A stretch of DNA of 64,000 bases from Scytolyngbya sp. HA4215-MV1 (GTDB taxonomy: Bacteria; Cyanobacteriota; Cyanobacteriia; Leptolyngbyales; Leptolyngbyaceae). Below, one piece after another: positions 59,968-61,859 of the stretch. The notes beneath the pieces were generated by a model. The model saw nothing but the letters and a program-made list of their open reading frames with translations, searched no databases and had not been told where the DNA came from. Where the stretch lies: NCBI GenBank assembly GCA_019359045.1, contig JAHHIA010000011.1, forward strand, positions 1-64,000. Direction: 5' to 3'. The translations under genes were made by a program, and so were the position numbers. The stretch's first letter is position 1; each line of letters opens with the position of its first letter.

Positions 59968-60291
59968 CTAGAGATGTTTTTCGATGGCATTCGATAGTGT
60001 TGTCTTAGGAACAGCACCCACCACCATATCAACCCGTTGTCCTCCCTTGAAAATCATCAAGGTAGGAATACTGCGAATGCCATATTGACTGGCAACGCTG
60101 GGATTTTCGTCAGTGTTGACTTTCACGACCTTGACCTGACCCTCATACTGCGCCGCGATTTCATCCACAACCGGCGCAACCATGCGACAAGGACCACACC
60201 AGGGAGCCCAGAAATCAACCAAAACAGGCACTTCGCTCTCAAGCACCTCTTGCTTAAAAGTGGAATCTGTAACTTGTGCGGCGACTGACAT
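59968..60291 (-). CDS. trxA: Thioredoxin
   Basis: This 107-residue cytosolic thioredoxin has the active site WCGPC at about 31-35 ([12 protein letters not shown]), the cis-Pro loop [11 protein letters not shown] and the typical [12 protein letters not shown] end. It reduces protein disulfides, with ferredoxin- or NADPH-dependent recycling. It lies downstream of yfr1 and guaB3, a conserved cyanobacterial order. Confidence 0.96.
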
Positions 60292-60520
60292 GCTTGGAAA
60301 TCCTTAGCCTATAATTATTTCTCCGAATTCTACCATAGCGAAAACAGACGGCTTTAGTAGCAGCATGTAGATATTTGAACACAATTTGAAGTGATGTAAG
60401 GAACACATCTCGCTAATCCAAAAGATGAGAGCAATATGAGAAAGTTTCTGCCAGAAATTGACAACTTTGATAGGGAAAAATCTGAATTGAAAAGGGTTGA
60501 ATCGAAATACCCTACTAATA

Positions 60521-60592
60521 AAGAGGAACCGCCCAGACGAAACGTCTAGGCGGAGTGTGGTGTGAGGAGTGAACGGAAACATGCGTCTCCGC
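60521..60592 (-). ncRNA. yfr1: Small regulatory RNA Yfr1
   Basis: On the minus strand the core ACTCCTCACACC (complement of 60559-60570) contains the ultra-conserved Yfr1 motif ACUCCUCACAC. It is unpaired and flanked by two hairpins: a 5' stem of GCGGAGAC/GTTTCCGT with a GCAT loop, and a 3' terminator stem (60529-60553, CCGCCTAGACG/CGTCTGGGCGG, one mismatch) followed by TTCCTCTTT. The position between guaB3 and trxA is the conserved Yfr1 location in cyanobacteria. Yfr1 binds porin mRNAs at their start regions. Ends are approximate. Confidence 0.93.
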
Positions 60593-60599
60593 TTTTTCC

Positions 60600-60605
60600 A
60601 TTCTA
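60600..60605 (-). promoter_or_regulatory. Likely -10 element of yfr1
   Basis: On the minus strand TAGAAT lies about 7 bp before the proposed Yfr1 5' end. I see no clear -35 at the usual distance. Confidence 0.55.
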
Positions 60606-60695: not shown

Positions 60696-61859
60696 TTACT
60701 TACCCATCCCCAATTGTTGAGCTTTCTGATAAACCTTTCCTTCGGTCAACAATGAGGGCGCAATTACAACTTCGACCTGTTGCATTTCTGCGATATCTTT
60801 TGCCCCCAACGTGCCCATGCTGGTTTGTAAGGCACCCAAAAGATTATGAGTGCCATCATCTAGCTGAGCTGGGCCTCGCAAAATTTGCTCCAAAGTCCCG
60901 GTTGTACCTACCCGAATCCGGGTTCCTCGGGGAAGTACAGGGCTAGGAGTTGCCATGCCCCAATGATAACCACGCCCTGGAGCCTCTTGTGCTCTGGCAA
61001 AGGGTGAGCCAATCATAACGCCATCGGCACCACAGGCAATGCATTTACAGATATCTCCGCCTGTAATGAGTCCACCATCCGCAATCACAGGCACATAGTT
61101 CCCTGTTTCTCGATGGTAATCGTCCCGTGCCGCAGCACAATCAGCGATTGCAGTCGCTTGCGGAACACCGACACCCAGTACCCCTCGCGATGTGCAAGCC
61201 GCACCTGGCCCAATTCCCACCAAAATGCCCGCCGCGCCAGCCTTCATCAAATTCAGCGTCACCTCATACGTGACACAATTTCCCAACACTACTGGAATTG
61301 GCATTTCTTGACAAAAATGTGCCAGATCAAGCGGTGTCACGGTCTCTGGGGAAAGATGTGCAGTCGAAACCACAGTTGCCTGCACAAAGAAAAGGTCAGC
61401 CCCAGCCTTCACCACGCTTTTGCCATAGCGCAATGCACCTGCGGGAGTAGCACTAACTGCCGCAATTCCTCCTTGCTGCTTAATTTCGAGAATCCGTTGC
61501 TCTATCAGTTCGGGTTTCACTGGCTCAGCATAAAGCTCTTGCATCAACGAGACAAATTCCGTCACCCCAACCGATGCAATCCGATCCAAAATTGGGTTTG
61601 GGTCTGCATAGCGTGTCTGAATTCCCTCCAAATTGAGAACACCTAAGGCTCCCAATTGAGATAACTGCACAGCCATCCGCACATCTACCACTCCATCCAT
61701 TGCACTCGCAATAATGGGAATTTCCCGCTCAATTCCCCCAATCCGCCAACGCGTATCTGCCAGACTAGGGTCCAAGGTTCTTTGTCCTGGAACTAGAGCG
61801 ATTTCATCAATGCCATATGCCCTACGGGCGGTTTTGCCCCTGCCAATTTGAATATTCAC
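60696..61859 (-). CDS. GuaB3-type IMP dehydrogenase
   Basis: The protein has 387 residues and lacks the CBS domains of classical IMP dehydrogenase. It starts MNIQIGRGKTARRAYGIDEIALVPG; the substrate loop with the catalytic Cys is GPGAACTSRGV, and VIADGGLITGGDI and KCIACGADGVMIGSPFARA form the IMP site. This is the GuaB3 branch, reported to act as IMP dehydrogenase in cyanobacteria, oxidising IMP to XMP with NAD+ for GMP synthesis. GTG start; a small hairpin lies in its leader. Yfr1 and trxA follow downstream. Confidence 0.92.
   Translation of the reverse strand: MNIQIGRGKTARRAYGIDEIALVPGQRTLDPSLADTRWRIGGIEREIPIIASAMDGVVDVRMAVQLSQLGALGVLNLEGIQTRYADPNPILDRIASVGVTEFVSLMQELYAEPVKPELIEQRILEIKQQGGIAAVSATPAGALRYGKSVVKAGADLFFVQATVVSTAHLSPETVTPLDLAHFCQEMPIPVVLGNCVTYEVTLNLMKAGAAGILVGIGPGAACTSRGVLGVGVPQATAIADCAAARDDYHRETGNYVPVIADGGLITGGDICKCIACGADGVMIGSPFARAQEAPGRGYHWGMATPSPVLPRGTRIRVGTTGTLEQILRGPAQLDDGTHNLLGALQTSMGTLGAKDIAEMQQVEVVIAPSLLTEGKVYQKAQQLGMGK

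Follow-up and report, generated by a model that had tools for sequence, protein, structure and literature searches.

A yfr1 small RNA gene between guaB3 and trxA of Scytolyngbya sp. HA4215-MV1 and its candidate targets among outer-membrane porins

The window, which is the whole 64,000-nucleotide stretch of Scytolyngbya sp. HA4215-MV1 DNA that we analyzed, carries on its minus strand between guaB3 and trxA an element that, judged by its sequence, is an ordinary full-length yfr1 gene and a further copy of an already well-known family. We consider it very probable that this gene, the single ortholog found in the source genome, gives rise to a trans-acting sRNA of ~66-75 nt, transcribed from its own promoter and ended by a terminator, that represses porins and is titrated by Yfr2. 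The identity of the gene, its predicted structure, the promoter-like sequence, the synteny and the complementarity to porin leaders were established by computation and are described below, and the coordinates of all features are collected in Table 1.

Identity, fold and promoter of the gene

When the whole window was compared with 4227 Rfam families, the Yfr1 model RF01116 gave the only match above the gathering score (54 bits against 38, E = 6.6e-8), on minus strand 60592-60527, covering the full length of the model and spanning 66 nt. The initial annotation had proposed a Yfr1 sRNA gene on the minus strand between guaB3 and trxA and had named a covariance search as the way to check it; the match is clear, and the synteny holds as well. 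From 60605 to 60519 the minus strand reads TAGAAT, a short spacer, GCGGAGAC-GCAT-GTTTCCGT, TC, ACTCCTCACACC, ACACT, CCGCCTAGACG-TTT-CGTCTGGGCGG and a T-rich tail. The predicted fold of this sequence (-30.7 kcal/mol, z -5.68, with none of 200 shuffles folding as well) consists of two hairpins with 19 unpaired bases between them, and ACTCCTCACACC lies unpaired in that stretch, as had been claimed from the letters, with the perfect 11-nt motif ACUCCUCACAC at 60570-60560. Among the 51 yfr1 copies that we read, all of them chosen by their Rfam match, the 11-mer is present in every one and ACTCCTCACACC in 50.

Table 1. Positions of the yfr1 gene, its parts, its neighbors and a Yfr2-type match (window coordinates unless a contig is given)
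Feature	Position	Strand	Basis and remarks
Yfr1 sRNA	60527..60592	minus	extent of Rfam match (RF01116, 54 bits, model 1-59/59)
-10-like box TAGAAT of the yfr1 promoter	60600..60605	minus	sequence and consensus scan
Weak -35-like hexamer TGGAAA	60622..60627	minus	inside conserved CTGG.AAA block
5' stem-loop	60573..60592	minus	8 bp, two G-U pairs, 4-nt loop GCAU; fold and consensus structure
Single-stranded core ACUCCUCACACC	60559..60570	minus	11-nt ultraconserved motif plus C
3' terminator-like hairpin	60529..60553	minus	11 bp (8 G-C), 3-nt loop
T-rich tail TTCCTCTTTA	60519..60528	minus	T-run interrupted; GGTTCCTT in many relatives
guaB3, upstream neighbor	60696..61859	minus	ORF; NCBIfam TIGR01304, 555.7 bits vs cut-off 342.1
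trxA (thioredoxin), downstream neighbor	59968..60291	minus	ORF; TIGR01068, 141.8 bits vs cut-off 96.8; PF00085
Yfr2-type match L054	C14:155293-155369		RF01701

The published description of Yfr1, in the passages of PMC2190773 that we drew on, lists 16-20 unpaired nt that contain the 11-nt motif ACUCCUCACAC without any change, a 5' stem-loop of 6-10 bp and, ahead of a U-tail, a GC-rich 3' hairpin of 6-9 bp, and our copy agrees with it in the core, the two hairpins, the -10-like box and the synteny. The 5' stem-loop, with 8 bp in the single-sequence fold and 9 bp in the consensus fold, lies within the published range. The GC-rich 3' hairpin has 9 bp in the consensus fold, which is also within the range, and 11 bp in the single-sequence fold. 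The T-tail is broken by CC, a tail also found in many relatives. In nothing of substance does the window copy differ from the family, with which it shares the core, the two hairpins, the 19-nt unpaired stretch, the guaB-yfr1-trxA order and a score above gathering. Changes on both sides that keep the pair were found at three of the nine consensus pairs of the 3' helix and at three of 18 pairs overall. Yfr1 is described as an abundant transcript of 54-69 nt (PMC2190773, same passages); here its probable 5' end is 60593 or 60592, and it would end in the T-rich stretch down to ~60519.

The TAGAAT box had been reported initially just upstream of the element, and it is indeed found there. In 39 of the 51 copies the hexamer most like a -10 box has its end 7 nt upstream of the 5' stem; over all 51 copies this hexamer is TACAAT 33 times and TAGAAT 12 times. 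One promoter-like site was found against 0.8 expected in shuffles, which is approximately chance level, and one terminator-like site against 0.4. Further upstream, at least 80% of 31 copies from the same family, compared in a fixed register with no alignment, retain the blocks CTGG.AAA and GTCGT, and the window has CTGGAAAA and GTCGA as its own versions of them. The count of CACCACACTCCGCC among the 51 copies was left out of our results.

The same annotation had described this copy as somewhat diverged, with one G-U pair in the 5' stem and one mismatch in the 3' stem, and these details need correction. There are two G-U pairs in the 5' stem (60592-60573 and 60587-60578), and the 3' stem has no mismatch, all 11 of its pairs being formed, one of them as a U-G wobble. 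In 30 aligned copies, a selection out of the 51 read, the two G-U pairs of the 5' stem never vary, and where the 3' stem has its wobble U-G is found in 15 of the 30, more often than any other state, so that the copy is ordinary rather than diverged. A diverged or decaying yfr1 was therefore rejected, since its score of 54 bits also falls inside the range of 39.2-61.7 bits observed across the 56 genomes with a match and its stem features are common to its relatives.

Core complements at the starts of porin genes

The mechanism that we consider likely is the one already published: the two hairpins of Yfr1 would hold the core ACUCCUCACACC unpaired, the core would pair with GGTGTGAGGA(G) in ribosome-binding sites, chiefly those of SLH/OprB-type (SomB-like) outer-membrane porins, this pairing would block porin translation, and RNAs of the Yfr2 family, in which a sequence almost fully complementary to the core lies close to the 5' end, would titrate Yfr1. 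For transcription, repression and titration this reading draws on published work on other cyanobacteria. In reporter experiments Yfr1 represses ten Nostoc leaders, including alr0834 and the OprB-like alr4550, and activates one, in each case via the core, and the OprB-like all4499 is also predicted as a target (Brenes-Alvarez et al. 2020, PMC6974561). In E. coli, a porin leader repressed by Yfr1 is released from this repression by Yfr2 (Lambrecht et al. 2019, PMC6778093), and sbtA is another reported target of Yfr1 (review PMC6202907; PMC11782454); all of these sources are cited from the passages available to us.

The source genome has 18 matches to SLH/OprB-type porins, and the leaders of 11 of them were read, including one whose start codon is uncertain (L162). 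An exact complement of 8-12 nt to the core lies near the start in nine of these 11 leaders, and the remaining two have complements of 7 nt and 6 nt only. The porin at C16:353914 (L058/L171), with OprB and SLH domains by Pfam, has a 12-nt perfect complement at C16:353936 abutting its ATG, and in the porin at C22:3477 (L092/L132/L172; NCBIfam por_somb, 416.3 bits against a cut-off of 100) the 11-nt complement GGTGTGAGGAG ends 11 nt before the ATG. We then considered 30 porin loci taken from a search of 29 genomes. Our first rule for the start codon found a start in 28 of them, and in 24 of these 28 the real core bound better than all but at most 10 of 200 shuffled ones; the rule picked a wrong start in L136, L146, L152 and L156, none of which passed the shuffle test, and found no start in L141 and L160. 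When these six loci were re-read, GTGTGAGGA was seen near a start in five, which brings the loci with a complement of at least 8 nt to 29 of 30, five of them after the start had been re-picked by hand with the result already seen. The exception is L160, in which no core complement was found near the start even on re-reading. As a control, 39 trxA leaders from yfr1 loci, with starts set by a simple rule that was not individually checked (the last Met before the active-site motif), gave a longest complement of 4.3 nt on average and 6 nt at most.

The main alternative is that GGTGTGAGGA before porin starts is a strong inherited ribosome-binding site and no target site of Yfr1, a reading that we find unlikely but to which we allow an appreciable share of the probability. 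GAGGA looks like a Shine-Dalgarno sequence, the raw counts of core complements exceed those of the matched control by little, and the porin sites are not independent of each other because the loci are related and the sites inherited. On the other hand, nearly all porin leaders read retain the GGTGTG half of the site in full or for the most part, and this half is not expected in the Shine-Dalgarno pairing that GAGGA makes with the 16S 3' end; the trxA leaders reach only the short complements given above. Porin leaders of Nostoc and Prochlorococcus are also repressed by Yfr1 in reporters (PMC6974561, PMC6778093, in part).

The size of the excess can be judged from counts across genomes. The complement of the Yfr1 core is GGTGTGAGGAGT. 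In 58 genomes GTGTGAGGAG stands before an ATG at 222 sites, against 157 for the composition-matched TGTGGAGGAG with the same GAGGAG, while the reversed controls of the two patterns give 35 and 53 sites, respectively, and at least 29 of the 222 sites are the antisense of yfr1 itself. A shorter pattern occurs at 36 sites in the source genome against 21 for its reversed control; 29 listed sites were read (L069-L097, some of them naming one site twice) and 6 more have no locus. Many of the 29 lead into very short ORFs, and therefore most of them are probably no targets. The general excess of core complements before ATG is small, and the argument for Yfr1 targets therefore rests on the porin leaders. 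The full ACTCCTCACACC occurs five times in the source genome and its reversed control pattern not at all; one of the five sites is yfr1, two are antisense to a Yfr2-type match and to the porin leader at C16:353936, respectively, and the other two (L059 and L060) are described below.

Gene neighborhood and distribution

The gene order guaB3, yfr1, trxA, which had been called the conserved one, was recovered with all three genes on the minus strand and both neighbors supported by profile matches. Of the 51 loci read, 41 have guaB3 on the same strand upstream and 39 have trxA downstream; 32 have both neighbors and 3 have neither, and these counts are lower bounds because some loci are cut by contig ends. 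In an earlier survey guaB was found at yfr1 in 25 of 31 genomes and trxA in 27 of 31 (Voss et al. 2007, PMC2190773, in the passages available). A yfr1 match over the cut-off is present in 56 of the 58 genomes searched, the source genome included, and the latter (6.6 Mb in 33 contigs, 99.99% complete) has one. Of the two genomes with no yfr1 over the cut-off, G031 has no full guaB3 match either, and the missing yfr1 is therefore probably a gap of the assembly; in G043 guaB3 is present and no core was found in the 4.1 kb around it (locus L099), so that a loss or move of yfr1 is possible.

This arrangement would also suit an element that belongs to the 3' end of the guaB3 mRNA or to the leader of trxA, with its core acting in cis, given that the spacer between guaB3 and trxA holds it in the orientation of both genes and that the order is kept in 32 of the 51 loci. 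We regard such a cis-element as very improbable and rejected it: the -10-like box keeps its 7-nt distance in most copies, the copy remains intact in those 19 loci, out of 51, whose stretch as read showed no guaB3, no trxA or neither (some of these stretches being cut by contig ends), and Northern blots have revealed Yfr1 in seven other cyanobacteria (PMC2190773, in part). That the RNA is dual-function, with the AUG of the 5' hairpin starting a small protein, was dismissed as extremely improbable, for although a 92-aa ORF (60304-60582) does start there in the window, the ATG is present in only 31 of the 51 copies (AAG in 17) and the reading frame that it opens is anywhere between 15 and 102 aa long.

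Two observations were made in the spacer beside the yfr1 gene. In genome G025 a second ACTCCTCACAC occurs around position 1672 of locus L023, 149 nt downstream of the yfr1 core and before trxA, in a different hairpin context. Another TAGAAT is found at 60332-60327 of the minus strand of the window, in TTCGCTATGGTAGAATTCG before trxA, and also in L023; the one in the window is perhaps the -10 box of trxA itself.

Related RNAs and the role of Yfr1

The source genome has four matches to RF01701 (L052, L053, L054 and L055), three of them over the cut-off, and we take this model, Cyano-1, to be the Yfr2 family. Yfr2 is a partner RNA with a complementary motif, matched elsewhere in the source genome, and it differs from Yfr1 in carrying a GGTGTGAGGAG-like sequence, which is the complement of the core, and in having several copies. 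The duplexes computed between the four matches and the core region of Yfr1 have energies of -19.3, -25.2, -29.2 and -21.6 kcal/mol, the best of them with 15 contiguous pairs. A CTGGAGTCGAAACA stretch shared by the RF01701 matches and the Yfr2c oligonucleotides given in the passages of PMC2662882 supports their identity as Yfr2.

Yfr10-type sRNAs have the Yfr1 core in common with Yfr1 and differ from it in that their sequence, structure and place are less conserved (PMC6778093, from the passages available). A further ACTCCTCACACC lies outside the window at C23:627929-627940 (L059) and is followed by a strong hairpin and a T-run; similar DNA was found in two of 58 genomes, the source genome included, and the locus gave no Rfam match over the gathering score. 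By its sequence it is possibly a Yfr10-like sRNA. At C31:183766-183777 (L060) the Yfr1 core, in sense orientation, directly precedes the ATG of what is presumably an NAD-binding epimerase ORF, and from this placement it is conceivable that the locus is a target of Yfr2.

We know of no homology between Yfr1 and the MicF-type porin-repressing sRNAs of enterobacteria. Yfr1 would act likewise, by an antisense block of porin translation (MicF is named in the part of PMC6202907 used here).

The Yfr1 family has been described since 2005-2007, and the gene in the window adds one copy to it; its use is in annotation, as protein-only annotation leaves yfr1 blank. By analogy with other cyanobacteria, Yfr1, which is found in nearly all of them, probably damps the synthesis of outer-membrane pore proteins. 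The sequences of the leaders further suggest, as a tentative idea that we find plausible and hold at slightly less than even confidence, that in this cyanobacterial family Yfr1 may be a porin-wide switch, in which most paralogues of the large SLH/OprB-type porin family carry a graded 8-12-nt complement at the start codon, and one sRNA, together with the Yfr2 RNAs that titrate it, would determine the porin composition of the entire outer membrane, with a separate strength of control for each paralogue. Such graded complements at many paralogues would go beyond the porin targets named in the published passages, in the same direction, the comparison being with those passages. The pattern would extend the targets predicted or tested in Prochlorococcus and Nostoc, and, if true, the graded porin series would offer a case in which the tuning of a paralogue family by one sRNA could be put to the test.
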